Shown here one piece after another: positions 38,004 to 64,000 of a DNA stretch of 64,000 nt (the stretch's first letter is position 1; the number at the start of each line of letters is the position of its first letter). The notes beneath the pieces were generated by a model. That model saw only the letters and a list, made by a program, of their open reading frames with translations, ran no database searches and was not told where the DNA came from. The translations under genes and the position numbers were made by a program. The DNA comes from Streptomyces sp. NBC_01775. Its GTDB lineage: Bacteria; Actinomycetota; Actinomycetes; Streptomycetales; Streptomycetaceae. The stretch lies in contig NZ_CP109104.1 of NCBI RefSeq assembly GCF_035917675.1, positions 7,688,001-7,752,000 on the forward strand, written 5' to 3'.

Positions 38004-39122
38004 TCAGCGGCTCTGTCCCCGGCCCAGCGCCCCGCCCAGCCGGCGGCGCGCCCACATTCCCCGCCAGGCCAGGTCCACCGCGGCGGCCTTCGGCCCTCGC
38101 AGGCCACGCATCCGCACGAGCGCCCGTACGCACCACATGCGGGTCTCGGCCGTATGGGCGGGCGAGCCGTGCACATCGTCGATCGTCAGCAGCCCCACAT
38201 CGCGCACATGGCGCTCCAGCGCGGCCGGGTCCGCCGCCGGAATGATCTCGTCCCGGCCGCTGACCACACAGCGCACCGGGATCCGCAGCCCCTCCAGCAG
38301 CGCACCGTCGAGTGCGAACTCCCCCATGGAGCCCAGCACTTCGCCCCGGTCGTGGGAGTCGATGCCGCGCAGGTGGGCCAGGGTGTCCACGGTGACGCGG
38401 GGCACCGTGCGCTGCCACTCGCGGTCCTGGAAGAAGGCGCTCACCGGCGCGCCCGCCGTCACGACACCCCGGATGCGGGAGTCCTCGGCGGCGCAACTCA
38501 GCGCCAGGTGCCCGCTGAAGCTCAGCGCCAGCGCGTATGTGCGCGCCACCTCGGCCCGGTCCGCGACGGCGTCGAGCAGCCACGACAGCATCCGGGAACT
38601 CTTCGGCCCGTAGCGCAGCGGGTTCTCGCCGATGCCCGGCAGCTCGGCGACGATCGCCGCCATCCCCAGGTGCCGCACCGAGGTGAGCACCGGCGCCCAC
38701 AGCTCCTTGACGGAGACGATGCCGCCTGTGATCACCAGCAGCGGGCGGGGGTCGGCGGCATCCAGCCCCGTCGCCCAGCAGCGCATCCGGCCCCCGGGCA
38801 GTTCGACCTCCAGGCTCTCGATGCCCAGTTCCGGCCGGGCCGAGCGCCAGCGGTCGAAGGCGTCCACACAGGCGTTCTGCGCCTCCTGCCGCGCGGGCCC
38901 GTCGACGAAGGGGAAGCGCGCCATGGCGAAGTAGCGGCAGGCCTCCAGCGGCATGTCCCGCTCGATCAGGCGCCGCCCCGCCGCGCTCCACTCGCCCGCC
39001 CACGACCCCGGGCCGCCGCCCTCGTCGGTGTGGATACGGTCCAGCAGCTGTTGGTGGTCGGGGATCCGCTGGCCGCGCGCGTGCACGACCACGAACTCCT
39101 TCAGCTCGGCGAGGTCGTTCAC
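38004..39122 (-). CDS. Tetronate-tailoring alpha/beta hydrolase (Agg5/AbyA5-like)
   Basis: A 372-residue protein: helical N-terminal region, then an alpha/beta hydrolase fold (LLVITGGIVSVKELW, nucleophile region ALSFSGHLAL near residue 200, acid in VSGRDEIIP, base probably in DVHGSPAH). It closes the tetronate cassette. In agglomerin and abyssomicin pathways the equivalent enzyme eliminates acetate from an acetylated hydroxymethyl-tetronate to form the exocyclic methylene. GTG 39122 overlaps the acyltransferase stop (GTGA). The role follows from gene order and fold; I have not compared sequences. Confidence 0.78.
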   Translation of the reverse strand: MNDLAELKEFVVVHARGQRIPDHQQLLDRIHTDEGGGPGSWAGEWSAAGRRLIERDMPLEACRYFAMARFPFVDGPARQEAQNACVDAFDRWRSARPELGIESLEVELPGGRMRCWATGLDAADPRPLLVITGGIVSVKELWAPVLTSVRHLGMAAIVAELPGIGENPLRYGPKSSRMLSWLLDAVADRAEVARTYALALSFSGHLALSCAAEDSRIRGVVTAGAPVSAFFQDREWQRTVPRVTVDTLAHLRGIDSHDRGEVLGSMGEFALDGALLEGLRIPVRCVVSGRDEIIPAADPAALERHVRDVGLLTIDDVHGSPAHTAETRMWCVRALVRMRGLRGPKAAAVDLAWRGMWARRRLGGALGRGQSR

Positions 39123-40015
39123 GGCGTCACCCGCTCCCCGGCCCGCTCCGGCACCGCACCGGCCCCGGTGTGCCCGTCCCCGGTGTGCCCGGACCCGGCG
39201 CCCTCCTCCTCAGCGCGCTGGTCCTCGTCCGCCGTCGCTGCGAACTCCTCCAGCGCGTCCTTGAGTTCGCCCAGCACGTCGGCCGCCTCCGCGCCGTCGA
39301 TGACGCGGTGGTCGAAGGTCATGCTCAGCGGCAGCAGCGGTGCCGTCGCCAGCTTCCCGTCCCGCACCACGGGCCGCTCCGCGACCCGGCCCAGGCCGAA
39401 GGTGAGGGTCGTGCCGCCCACCGAGTAGAAGCCGTTGACCGGGCGGTGCCCCAGCGAGGTCACCGCGAACGTGCCGTTGGTGCCGGCGCGGCGCGCCAGC
39501 GGACGGGTCCCCAGCCGGTAGGCCAGCGGGCCCAGCGGCCAGGGCAGCCGGTGCAGGGTACGCACGGCGGCGAACTCCCCCATGGTGTCCGGGTCCCCGT
39601 GCCGGTAGTGGTCGATCTGCCGCTGGATGTCCGCGAGCCCCTGGCTCTCCAGTCCGGGGAGGACAGCGGAGAGCACCACCCGGCGCCCCTCCAGCGTCTT
39701 GTCCAGCGTCACCTTCCCCGCCACCGACGCGTAGCGCGCCACCCGGGGCCGCCGACGGCCGCGTATCGCCGCGTTGGCCTCCGGATGCCGGGCCAGCACA
39801 CGCGCCGCGGCGTGCAGGACGTACGCCACCGTCGAGTACGGCCGCTCCCGCAGCCCGGCCGCCACCGAGGCGGCACCGTGCGCGCGCACCGCGCTCATGT
39901 CCACCTCCGTGTCGAGGAAGACCGGCGCGAACGCCTTGATCTCGTCCAGGAAGTACAGGGTGTGGCGGCGCTGCCGGGCCGCGGGGACGCTCCGCGCGCC
40001 CTCGGCCGCGCTCAC
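39119..40015 (-). CDS. 2-oxoacid-dehydrogenase E2-type acyltransferase (Agg4/AbyA4-like)
   Basis: A 298-residue protein with only the catalytic domain of dihydrolipoamide acyltransferases: a core including PVFLDTEVDMSAVRAHG, FAVTSLGHRPVNGFYSV, and the active-site motif MTFDHRVIDG (His near residue 235). There are no lipoyl or subunit-binding domains, so it is not part of a normal dehydrogenase complex. In tetronate pathways such enzymes acetylate the hydroxymethyl group before elimination. The 40-residue C-terminal tail is Gly/Thr/Glu-rich and repetitive. GTG 40015 overlaps the ACP stop (GTGA). Confidence 0.85.
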   Translation of the reverse strand: MSAAEGARSVPAARQRRHTLYFLDEIKAFAPVFLDTEVDMSAVRAHGAASVAAGLRERPYSTVAYVLHAAARVLARHPEANAAIRGRRRPRVARYASVAGKVTLDKTLEGRRVVLSAVLPGLESQGLADIQRQIDHYRHGDPDTMGEFAAVRTLHRLPWPLGPLAYRLGTRPLARRAGTNGTFAVTSLGHRPVNGFYSVGGTTLTFGLGRVAERPVVRDGKLATAPLLPLSMTFDHRVIDGAEAADVLGELKDALEEFAATADEDQRAEEEGAGSGHTGDGHTGAGAVPERAGERVTP

Positions 40016-62260: not shown

Positions 62261-64000
62261 TCAGGAAATGCCGAGTTCGTTGTCGAGCACGTCGAAGAGT
62301 TCGTCGTCGCTCACCGTGCGCAGGTCCTCCGCGTACCCCTCGGTGGGCCCCTCGGCGGAGGCGTGCGCGGGGTCCGAAGGGGTGCCGTCCAGCCGCCACA
62401 GCAGCGACCGGAGCCGTTTGGCGATCAGCAGCCGGGACTCCAGCGTGTCCGGCGCTTGTTGCAACGCCTCCTCCAGCGCACGCAGTTCGGCCGAGGCGGG
62501 TACCGCGGCCAAGGGGTCCTCGGGCAGGACGCGGGTCAGCAGGTACGTGGCCAGCGCCGCGGGTGTCGGGTGGTCGAAGATGACCGTCGAGGGGACCCGG
62601 AGCCCGGTTGCCGCCGTCAGCCGGTTGCGCAGCCGGATCGCCGCCAGTGAGTCGAAACCCAGCTCCTGGAAGGCGCGTTCGGGGTGGATGTCCTGCGCGG
62701 AGGAGTGCCCCAGCACCGAGGCGATCTGGCCGCGCGCGAAGTCCAGCAGCGCCGCCCGCCGCTCCCCTTCGGGCAACCGGGCGAGCCGCTGGGCGAGCGA
62801 GGGACCGCCGGAGCCGGTGCGCCGCGCGGGTACGTGGACGAGGCCGCGCAGGATCGCCGGCAACGCCTCGCCGTCCGCGCCGCCCGCCCCGCTTTCGGCG
62901 GTCTCGGCGGCGCGCGCCCGCAGCGCCGCCAGGTCCAGATCGGCCGGTACGAGCAGGGCGCGCCCGCTGCCGGGTGGCGCGTTCAGCGGTGCGCCCGGCG
63001 AGTCCGGCGAGGCCGGTGATCCTGGGGCGACCGGTGTCGCCTCCAGTGCGGCGTCGAAGAGTGCGAGGGCGCGTGCGGCGGGCAGTGGCCGGACGCCGTT
63101 GCGGGCCAGCCGCGCCGCTTCGGCGTCATCGAGCCGCTCGCCCATGCCCCCGCCCTCTTCCCACAGGCCCCAGGCCAGCGACAGCGCGGGCAGCCCCCGC
63201 GCGCGCCGGTGCTGGGCGAGCGCGTCGAGGAAGGTGTTGGCAGCGGCGTAGTTGGCCTGGCCCGGGTTGCCGAGCGTCCCGGCGACGGACGAGAACAGCA
63301 TGAAGGCCGACAGGTCCGTCGCGGCGGTCAGCTCGTGCAGGTTCCAGGCGGCGTCGGCCTTCGGCCGCAGGACCCGCTCCAGCCGTGCCTCGTCCAGCGA
63401 CGGCAGCGTGCCGTCGTCCAGAATGCCGGCGGCGTGTACGACGGCGGTGAGCGGATGCTCCGAGGGGATCGTGCCGAGCAGCGCCTCCAGCGCGGCACGG
63501 TCGGCCGCGTCACACGCGACGACCCGCACCTCGGCGCCCTGCCCGCGCAGTTCCTCGCACAGCCCGTCCGCGCCGTCCGCTGCGGGACCGCGCCGGCTGG
63601 TGAGCAGCAGATGACGTACGCCGTGCGCCGCCACCAGATGCCCGGCCAGCAGGCTGCCGACACCCCCGGTGCCGCCCGTGATCAGCACGGTGCCTTCGGG
63701 GTCGAACGAAGGGCTCAGCGAAGGGGGTGCCGACTGGTCCCCGGAGTCCTCCCGCGGGAGGCGCGCGAGCCGGGGGGCGGTGAAAGCTCCCTCGCGCAGG
63801 GCGAGTTGGGTCTCACCGGTGGCCACGGCAGCGGGTATGACGGAGGCCGGCGCGCCATCGCGGTCGATGTCGAGCAGCACGAACCGGCCCGGATTCTCGG
63901 TCTGCGCCGACCGCAGCAGGCCCCATGCGGCGGCTGCCGCCGGGTCGGGCGTCCCACCCGAGTCCGGGTCGGGCAGCACGGCGCCGCGCGTCACCACGAC
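62261..64000 (-). CDS. Type I PKS, C-terminal part: KR-ACP-docking (PKS-A, cropped by window edge)
   Basis: The frame is open to the window end. Visible parts: the KR structural subdomain (AAWGLLRSAQTENPGRFVLL), running straight into the catalytic KR (LITGGTGGVGS, HAAGILDDG, SSVAGTLGNPGQANYAAAN) with no ER between, then the ACP (ELGFDSLAAIRLRNRL) and a C-terminal docking region ending ELFDVLDNELGIS. The KR looks active and B-type by its LDD. Whether a DH precedes it cannot be seen. Its docking tail should pair with the N-terminal helix of PKS-B. Confidence 0.95.
   Translation of the reverse strand, partial: VVVTRGAVLPDPDSGGTPDPAAAAAWGLLRSAQTENPGRFVLLDIDRDGAPASVIPAAVATGETQLALREGAFTAPRLARLPREDSGDQSAPPSLSPSFDPEGTVLITGGTGGVGSLLAGHLVAAHGVRHLLLTSRRGPAADGADGLCEELRGQGAEVRVVACDAADRAALEALLGTIPSEHPLTAVVHAAGILDDGTLPSLDEARLERVLRPKADAAWNLHELTAATDLSAFMLFSSVAGTLGNPGQANYAAANTFLDALAQHRRARGLPALSLAWGLWEEGGGMGERLDDAEAARLARNGVRPLPAARALALFDAALEATPVAPGSPASPDSPGAPLNAPPGSGRALLVPADLDLAALRARAAETAESGAGGADGEALPAILRGLVHVPARRTGSGGPSLAQRLARLPEGERRAALLDFARGQIASVLGHSSAQDIHPERAFQELGFDSLAAIRLRNRLTAATGLRVPSTVIFDHPTPAALATYLLTRVLPEDPLAAVPASAELRALEEALQQAPDTLESRLLIAKRLRSLLWRLDGTPSDPAHASAEGPTEGYAEDLRTVSDDELFDVLDNELGIS

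Follow-up and report, generated by a model that had tools for sequence, protein, structure and literature searches.

We analysed a 64,000-base stretch of DNA from Streptomyces sp. NBC_01775 (the window; bases 7688001-7752000 of a 9.06-Mb contig) together with its flanks, and describe here a putative spirotetronate gene cluster, the left end of which lies in the window. The cluster spans ~106 kb, with polyketide synthase (PKS) genes that reach genome position 7805562, and it combines a tetronate cassette, a modular PKS, candidates for two [4+2] cyclases, a gene set for a small aromatic acid and a set for sugars. Features within the window are given in window positions, and those in the right flank in genome coordinates.

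Tetronate cassette, polyketide synthase and cyclases

An earlier note on this DNA had claimed a complete tetronate cassette, and all of its parts are indeed in place on the minus strand. The β-ketoacyl-acyl carrier protein synthase III (KAS III)-like, tetronate-forming enzyme (42326..43357, within an open reading frame at 42326-43504 with a likely start at ~43357) has PDB entry 5by7 as its best match (E 3.5e-122), and the FkbH-like glyceryl transferase/phosphatase (40239..42362), for which the Pfam scan gave no match, was identified via TIGR01686 (272 bits, cut-off 147). The stand-alone acyl carrier protein (ACP) for the glycerate unit (40012..40242) matches PF00550 (PP-binding) with 27.9 bits and carries a DSL motif. 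It is followed by an E2-type acyltransferase (39119..40011; PF00198, 70.9 bits), which presumably acetylates the tetronate hydroxymethyl group, and whose open reading frame (39119-40276) probably has its true start near 40011, such that the N-terminal part overlapping the ACP gene would be untranslated. The last member is an AbyA5-like hydrolase (38004..39122; AbyA5 in the PDB, E 5e-106; FrsA-like in Pfam), which we take to carry out the elimination that yields an exocyclic methylene.

The PKS consists of a KSQ loading module and 11 extension modules distributed over six genes (loading module plus modules 1-3, module 4, modules 5-7, module 8, modules 9-10 and module 11). Acyltransferase (AT) domains with the motif YASH are methylmalonyl-type, those with HAFH malonyl-type and those with TAGH ethylmalonyl-type. 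The loading module carries the KSQ motif DAAQSS and an HAFH AT, and by their motifs the ATs of modules 1, 2, 3, 5, 6, 9 and 10 are methylmalonyl-type and those of modules 4, 7, 8 and 11 malonyl-type. Modules 4 and 9 contain dehydratase (DH), enoylreductase (ER) and ketoreductase (KR) domains, and the remaining modules among 1-10 contain DH and KR; all ten of these KRs look intact and have an LDD motif (shortened to DD in modules 4 and 9). Extension of the sequence to the right, which the earlier note had proposed, thus gave modules consistent with a linear decalin/spirotetronate precursor.

The modules within the window, all on the minus strand, bear on the end of the chain. Module 11 (PKS6; 45020..49987) comprises a ketosynthase (KS), an HAFH AT, a KR remnant and an ACP. 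Pfam aligns just 62 of 180 positions of this KR (36 bits), which has also lost the NADPH-binding and Tyr/Asn motifs present in the other ten; moreover, no thioesterase was found in the module among the 11 domain families listed in the scan. Both results agree with the earlier description of a terminal module lacking a thioesterase and having a dead KR. Module 10 (PKS5; 49989..55568) has KS, YASH AT, DH, KR and ACP domains, module 9 (PKS5; 55569..62168) adds an ER to the same set, likewise with a YASH AT, and the end part of module 8 (PKS4; 62261..64000; KR, ACP) belongs to a gene that continues past position 64000. The AT motifs and reductive domains of modules 9-11 agree with the predicted fragment R-CH2-CH(CH3)-CH=C(CH3)-CO-tetronate. 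This fragment (C3-C7) had been taken as a match to the kijanimicin type; the fragment itself stands, but the same last three AT types occur in the loci of Actinomadura pelletieri and Actinocrispum wychmicini.

It had also been suggested that module 8, then seen only in part, might have no DH and so set a hydroxyl at C9. The module does contain a DH (75.9 and 58.1 bits), which rules out a C9 hydroxyl through absence of the domain. Nevertheless, oxygen at C9 gains indirect backing from the degenerate appearance of this DH: of the 26 DHs in the three clusters that we read, 23 have retained the catalytic Asp as well as the PG of the first motif, and the exceptions are the three module-8 DHs. (A random pick of three DHs would equal the module-8 set once in 2600, a figure to be read knowing that the orthologues are non-independent and the positions were chosen after the alignment was seen.) Because the module-8 DHs alone depart from otherwise invariant positions, the sequences favour retention of the C9 oxygen. 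C15 could also keep a hydroxyl, since the module-5 DH has a four-residue insert in its first motif and a low PS-DH score (60.0 bits). The module-1 DH keeps the motifs that were checked and is apparently intact.

Comparison of the domains at the DNA level showed that six of the methylmalonyl ATs (modules 1, 2, 3, 5, 6 and 9) are 91-95% identical to each other and three of the malonyl ATs (modules 4, 7 and 8) are 99.0-99.8% identical (the module-8 copy being compared in its later part only), whereas the KS domains are 71-90% identical. The ATs therefore look homogenised, which points to gene conversion. (A blastn self-comparison listed just one repeat pair.)

Between the KAS III gene and PKS6 lies a gene absent from the earlier note, whose product is a predicted FAD-dependent [4+2] decalin cyclase (43414..44904, minus strand) resembling ChlE3 (515 bits) and PyrE3 (429 bits) in the PDB. 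The right flank encodes a PyrI4-like β-barrel protein (genome 7756523-7757128; PF18678; PyrI4 in the PDB, E 8e-51, the entry 7dvk being PyrI4 by its aligned sequence rather than ChlL), and this protein is predicted to be the spirotetronate cyclase, of the ChlL/PyrI4 type. It is 68% identical over 89% of its length to a protein of Streptomyces sp. NPDC050504, 64% identical to one of S. lavenduligriseus, the genome of which also carries a protein named ChlE3, and 58-59% identical to proteins of S. reniochalinae and S. lucensis. Matches in A. pelletieri, A. wychmicini, A. geliboluensis, A. kijaniata and S. olivaceus reach only 30-33% over partial lengths, and there was no match in Nonomuraea zeae. 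Among 392 sampled Streptomyces genomes, including that of the strain itself, 16 matched at E 0.001, two of them, besides the strain's own, at more than 40% identity; a scan of 61 genomes (the strain's own and relatives) with the FAD cyclase found its own copy plus one 49% match.

Aromatic acid, sugar and accessory genes

At the right of the cluster is an iterative PKS with the architecture KS-AT-DH-KR-ACP, of the 6-methylsalicylic acid synthase (MSAS) type (genome 7820588-7825981). Near it are genes for a small ACP (7818105-7818455), for two KASIII-like proteins with ChlB3 as the best match among solved structures (7819234-7820550, 508 bits; 7816850-7817896, 369 bits), and for an O-methyltransferase of the Methyltransf_2 family (7818452-7819477). 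In the chlorothricin pathway, as described in PMC9573744 and PMC7471628, ChlB3 passes 6-methylsalicylate to ChlB2 and ChlB6 grafts it, while ChlB4 chlorinates and ChlB5 O-methylates it. An MSAS, an ACP and two KASIII-like proteins, for which the comparison was with ChlB3, are all present here. The accompanying genes suggest that the product of the iterative PKS would be 6-methylsalicylate rather than a larger aromatic acid. No halogenase was found near the cluster; PF04820 matched in the genome only at 7218129-7219265, plus a weak match at 3991561, both at a great distance from it.

The sugar genes include two glycosyltransferases that match TIGR04516 (activator-dependent; genome 7805473-7807002, 303 bits, and 7814236-7815462, 318 bits; cut-off 440), a dTDP-glucose 4,6-dehydratase (7812183-7813175; TIGR01181, 410 bits, cut-off 365), a DesI-like 4-aminotransferase (~7810849-7811982; TIGR04427, 496 bits, cut-off 650; 58% match in A. 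wychmicini), an RmlC-like 3,5-epimerase (~7807928-7808446; PF00908; 133 bits, cut-off 156; 59% match in S. diacarni) and a 3-C-methyltransferase, the best solved relative of which is the D-mycarose 3-C-methyltransferase (588 bits). A weak RmlD-like reductase domain (~7807188-7807664) had no match in the relatives compared. A 344-residue open reading frame without a scan match turned out to be spurious; the frame that overlaps it (~7813172-7814290, minus strand) reads as a putative glucose-1-phosphate nucleotidyltransferase, a name we presume from its N-terminal motif, and has a 62% match in the A. pelletieri locus.

No nucleoside diphosphate-hexose 2,3-dehydratase (PF03559) was detected in the genome. 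The same search was positive in all five related genomes, including that of A. kijaniata, and in none of 14 built-in control genomes; in a second set it matched 9 of 14 genomes, with the strain's own among the five misses. Since the search did find the enzyme in related genomes, its absence here makes 2-deoxysugars such as digitoxose or olivose unlikely in the product, and our best guesses from the gene set are a 4-amino-6-deoxy sugar and a 3-C-methyl-6-deoxy sugar. (Nogalose provides a precedent for C-methylation without 2-deoxygenation.) The absence is not unique to this genome: a scan with the C-methyltransferase matched 177 of 392 Streptomyces genomes at E 1e-60 (own included; mostly distant homologues), and of the ten other genomes with the closest matches six have a 2,3-dehydratase, near the gene by coordinates, and four have none.

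The left end of the cluster carries regulatory and accessory genes, several of them matched among the 15 sequences compared. These comprise a SARP-type activator comparable to ChlF2 (36982..37833, plus strand; BTAD, 157.7 bits; 59-64% matches in 8 of the 15), a type II thioesterase comparable to ChlK (36167..37063, plus strand; PF00975, 187 bits; 50-63% matches in 7 of the 15), a phosphopantetheinyl transferase that is a probable edge of the cluster (34950..35705, minus strand; PF17837/PF01648), and a large LuxR-type regulator that is its probable left edge (31875..34694, minus strand; AAA_16 and GerE; 39-45% matches in 5 of the 15). Further left, 21391-31691 holds a cytochrome P450 (P450), an ABC-type sugar-uptake set and a large GH38-type alpha-mannosidase, all apparently unrelated to the cluster. 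To the right are a P450 among or right of the PKS genes (genome 7776704-7777924) and a major facilitator superfamily efflux protein (7809278-7810765). (A second contig, of 275 kb, was tested over 12 kb and is 100% identical there to a plasmid with conjugation-type genes from Streptomyces sp. NBC_01795.)

Relationship to known and predicted spirotetronate clusters

Relatives of the KAS III-like protein are not rare. A scan of 84,980 named species genomes, a set from which genomes very near the strain's own may be missing, gave 140 pattern matches, 105 of which encode a relative, and 79 distinct loci were kept (one just 29% identical). The closest are from A. pelletieri (73%), A. geliboluensis (71%), and A. 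chibensis and A. syzygii (69-70%), with S. diacarni, S. reniochalinae, A. wychmicini and N. zeae at 67%. The nearest relatives of both the KAS III-like and the FkbH-like protein sit in tetronate cassettes, in trees built from the query's relatives plus a single distant outgroup row, so on this point the earlier assignment held.

The phylogeny of the FAD cyclase separates the cluster from the loci of A. kijaniata and S. olivaceus, which represent kijanimicin and lobophorin by species name rather than by confirmed product. In a 20-row tree, the sister group of the cluster is the pair S. diacarni plus S. reniochalinae (95/96), A. pelletieri and A. wychmicini come next, the five rows group together (97/95), and A. 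kijaniata and S. olivaceus stand apart. In a 27-row tree, with ChlE3 and other references added, the forking order within this group is less certain, the group around ChlE3 stands separately, and a pair (100/100) of A. kijaniata and S. olivaceus again lies away from the cluster. An approximately unbiased (AU) test, run after the first tree was seen on a hypothesis that was the earlier note's own, rejected (p-AU 0.0081) a single clade joining the latter pair to the cluster's FAD cyclase and its partner in this tree. Trees of KAS III (82 rows; five-row group 93/83, place beside S. diacarni only 86/35) and of FkbH (43 rows; placed with S. diacarni at 87/93, in a 16-row group of poor resolution, 82/83, which contains neither A. 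kijaniata nor S. olivaceus) point in the same direction with weaker support. The partner of the FAD cyclase in the 27-row tree is a 91% identical protein on an ENA contig of 225,803 bases, which probably comes from a close relative of the cluster.

Of the label kijanimicin/lobophorin-type, which the earlier note had proposed, the tetronate cassette, the loading module with 11 modules and the decalin/spirotetronate precursor survive, but membership of that group does not, given the three trees, the AU test, the type of spiro cyclase, the missing dehydratase and the 6-methylsalicylate genes. Chlorothricin itself is ruled out as the product because there is no halogenase nearby and no 2,3-dehydratase in the genome. 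By these sequence comparisons, the cluster has its closer relatives among chlorothricin-like clusters, the kijanimicin/lobophorin family being more distant, and it groups with loci of the 6-methylsalicylate type in S. diacarni, S. reniochalinae, A. pelletieri and A. wychmicini.

The chlorothricin system of Streptomyces antibioticus, compared through single proteins and the literature rather than as a whole chl cluster, shares with our cluster a ChlE3-like FAD cyclase, a ChlL/PyrI4-type spiro cyclase, an MSAS with an ACP and two ChlB3-like proteins, a SARP and a type II thioesterase (PMC9573744; PMC7471628). Our cluster differs in that the halogenase and the 2,3-dehydratase for olivose are missing, C-methyl and 4-amino sugar genes are present, and the FAD cyclase falls outside the ChlE3 subclade. 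The loci of S. diacarni and S. reniochalinae match in the spiro cyclase (58%), 3-C-methyltransferase (64-65%), 3,5-epimerase (59%), 4,6-dehydratase (62%) and MSAS (51%), but in the 40 kb compared of each they show one ChlB3-like gene and no match to the O-methyltransferase, aminotransferase or small ACP, and their genomes hold a 2,3-dehydratase on a contig outside that stretch. (No spirotetronate appeared among the titles and abstracts found under the names of these two species.)

The locus of A. pelletieri DSM 43383 has the same cassette order and 11 extension modules, a 61% identical FAD cyclase, an MSAS (53%) and a 4,6-dehydratase (63%), in addition to the KAS III and nucleotidyltransferase matches given above. 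That of A. wychmicini has the cassette, a 54% identical FAD cyclase, an MSAS (52%), an O-methyltransferase (63%), which none of the other three relatives has, and the 4-aminotransferase (58%), but 10 extension modules. Two ChlB3-like genes and a 36-40% match to the ACP are found in each of these loci. Both differ from our cluster in having a 2,3-dehydratase (~10 kb from KAS III in A. pelletieri and ~10 kb from the cassette in A. wychmicini), in the spiro cyclase (just 30% and 31% identical, respectively), and in module 4 or its match being KR-only by spacing where ours is fully reducing. The loading and module-6 ATs, HAFH and YASH in our cluster, are TAGH in both, an ethylmalonyl-type motif. 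Several A. pelletieri strains make MM 46115 (PMC10951976), and PMC10946715 mentions a cyclase with a likely link to the wychimicins.

Compared by compound rather than by cluster, the small-ring spirotetronates maklamicin, phocoenamicin and nomimicin differ in starter, side chain, chlorine and sugars. As points of resemblance, the phocoenamicins bear a chlorinated hydroxy-methylbenzoate (PMC9782249), and nomimicin has methyls at C18 and C20 of its cyclohexene (PMC8404215), as modules 3 and 2 of our PKS predict.

Predicted pathway, alternatives and significance

From the gene and domain content and the homologies observed, we infer the following pathway and product. An acetate starter would be extended on the KSQ loading module and the 11 modules with seven methylmalonyl and four malonyl units, as read from the AT motifs; FkbH would put a glycerate unit on the ACP and the KAS III-like enzyme would couple it to the chain and release a tetronate. 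The ChlE3-like flavoprotein would fold the C4=C5 dienophile and the C10-C13 diene into the decalin. Acetylation by the E2-type enzyme and elimination by the AbyA5-like hydrolase would generate the exocyclic methylene, which the PyrI4/ChlL-like barrel would add to the C18-C21 diene to close an 11-membered ring. The iterative PKS would supply 6-methylsalicylate, the two ChlB3-like proteins would transfer it by way of the small ACP, and its oxygen would be methylated by the O-methyltransferase. Two glycosyltransferases would attach sugars made by the nucleotidyltransferase, the 4,6-dehydratase, the 4-aminotransferase, the 3,5-epimerase and the 3-C-methyltransferase.

Taken together, the KSQ loading module and 11 modules, the decalin cyclase, the spiro cyclase and the 6-methylsalicylate-type set within one cluster lead us to assign the locus, with a probability of roughly 0.8, to the 6-methylsalicylate (chlorothricin-like) branch of the class II spirotetronate clusters, as a genuine but uncharacterised member. 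Its product is very probably a spirotetronate antibiotic bearing deoxysugars and a small aromatic acid, and is predicted to lack chlorine, to have a ring that is probably 11-membered, and to carry non-2-deoxy sugars and a 2-methoxy-6-methylbenzoyl group. The ring size and cyclisation on the C18-C21 diene are likely rather than certain, and are suggested by the cyclase type and by the methyls that modules 3 and 2 place on C18 and C20 in the nomimicin cyclohexene pattern. More tentatively, and with the odds somewhat against us on the full set of features, the product would represent an undescribed chemotype: a seven-fold C-methylated, C17-deoxy, unchlorinated aglycone carrying 2-methoxy-6-methylbenzoyl on a 4-amino and/or 3-C-methyl 6-deoxysugar, with no 2-deoxysugar, and with an extender pattern rewritten as a single methylmalonyl AT was copied to six modules and a single malonyl AT to three. 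No description of the cluster was found among the titles and abstracts searched, a set that did not include the original chlorothricin, kijanimicin and maklamicin cluster papers.

Several points weigh against this interpretation. The cluster and its predicted product are read from the genes; AT specificities and DH activities are predicted from motifs and homology, as is the identity of each sugar, and the aminotransferase, the epimerase and the glycosyltransferases score under their NCBIfam cut-offs. A. pelletieri and A. wychmicini, with close FAD cyclase and KAS III genes, nonetheless carry quite different spiro cyclases, indicating that cyclase type and skeleton need not travel together; spiro cyclases seem to have been exchanged among spirotetronate clusters. 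In addition, the module-8 AT is split over two frames in the assembly (Pfam positions 2-101 and 104-317; genome 7753486-7754463, equivalent to window positions 65486-66463), so the line may be dead. The split is due to one gap in a 978-base stretch that is otherwise 99.3% identical to the module-7 AT. Were the frame change a real lesion, no full-length product would be made and the cluster would be a silent relic, which we consider rather unlikely. Short-read polishing is unreliable in near-identical repeats, and the sequence in question is present three times; an assembly error is plausible because the frame change sits in such a repeat. The other five PKS genes, the cassette and the tailoring genes found are, moreover, open frames.

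The ring could instead be 13-membered, as module 1 keeps a DH with the checked motifs and a third conjugated double bond is possible. A kijanimicin/lobophorin-type product, with a 13-membered carbocycle formed via a C20-C23 diene, would fit with the acetate-type starter and with the kijanimicin skeleton, to which the malonyl/methylmalonyl identity of 9 of the 11 modules conforms; kijanimicin likewise has a loading module and 11 modules (PMC10951976), and kijanimicin and lobophorin are class II compounds made with the same tetronate cassette. We nevertheless regard such a product as improbable. The FAD cyclase is in a separate clade, and a published network places KijU/LobD1/LonU2/TcaU4/VstJ apart from the ChlL/PyrI4 type found here (PMC10946715). 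The methylmalonyl-type modules 2 and 6 and the fully reducing module 4 depart from the kijanimicin skeleton, and no 2,3-dehydratase was detected in the genome, whereas digitoxose and a nitro sugar occur in that family. The account of kijanimicin in PMC10951976, in the portion available, mentions no MSAS-type acyl group.

That the locus makes a simple acyl tetronate or a polyether tetronate rather than a spirotetronate is far less probable still. A cassette of this kind is common to other tetronate clusters, and most of the 79 KAS III loci show no FAD cyclase match in their flanks, but here both types of [4+2] cyclase, decalin-compatible modules and the 6-methylsalicylate set are present, and no epoxidase or epoxide hydrolase family turned up in the Pfam scans made.

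Spirotetronates include agents against Gram-positive bacteria and tumour cells (PMC6521127). The class is known, and an uncharacterised cluster within it is an ordinary but useful find; the two [4+2] cyclases, the 6-methylsalicylate transfer system and the unusual sugar set together make the cluster a concrete lead for a new compound. Set beside the loci of A. pelletieri, A. wychmicini and S. diacarni, it suggests independent exchange of the decalin cyclase, the spiro cyclase and the sugar genes, and the near-identical ATs look like a natural rewriting of extender units through gene conversion.

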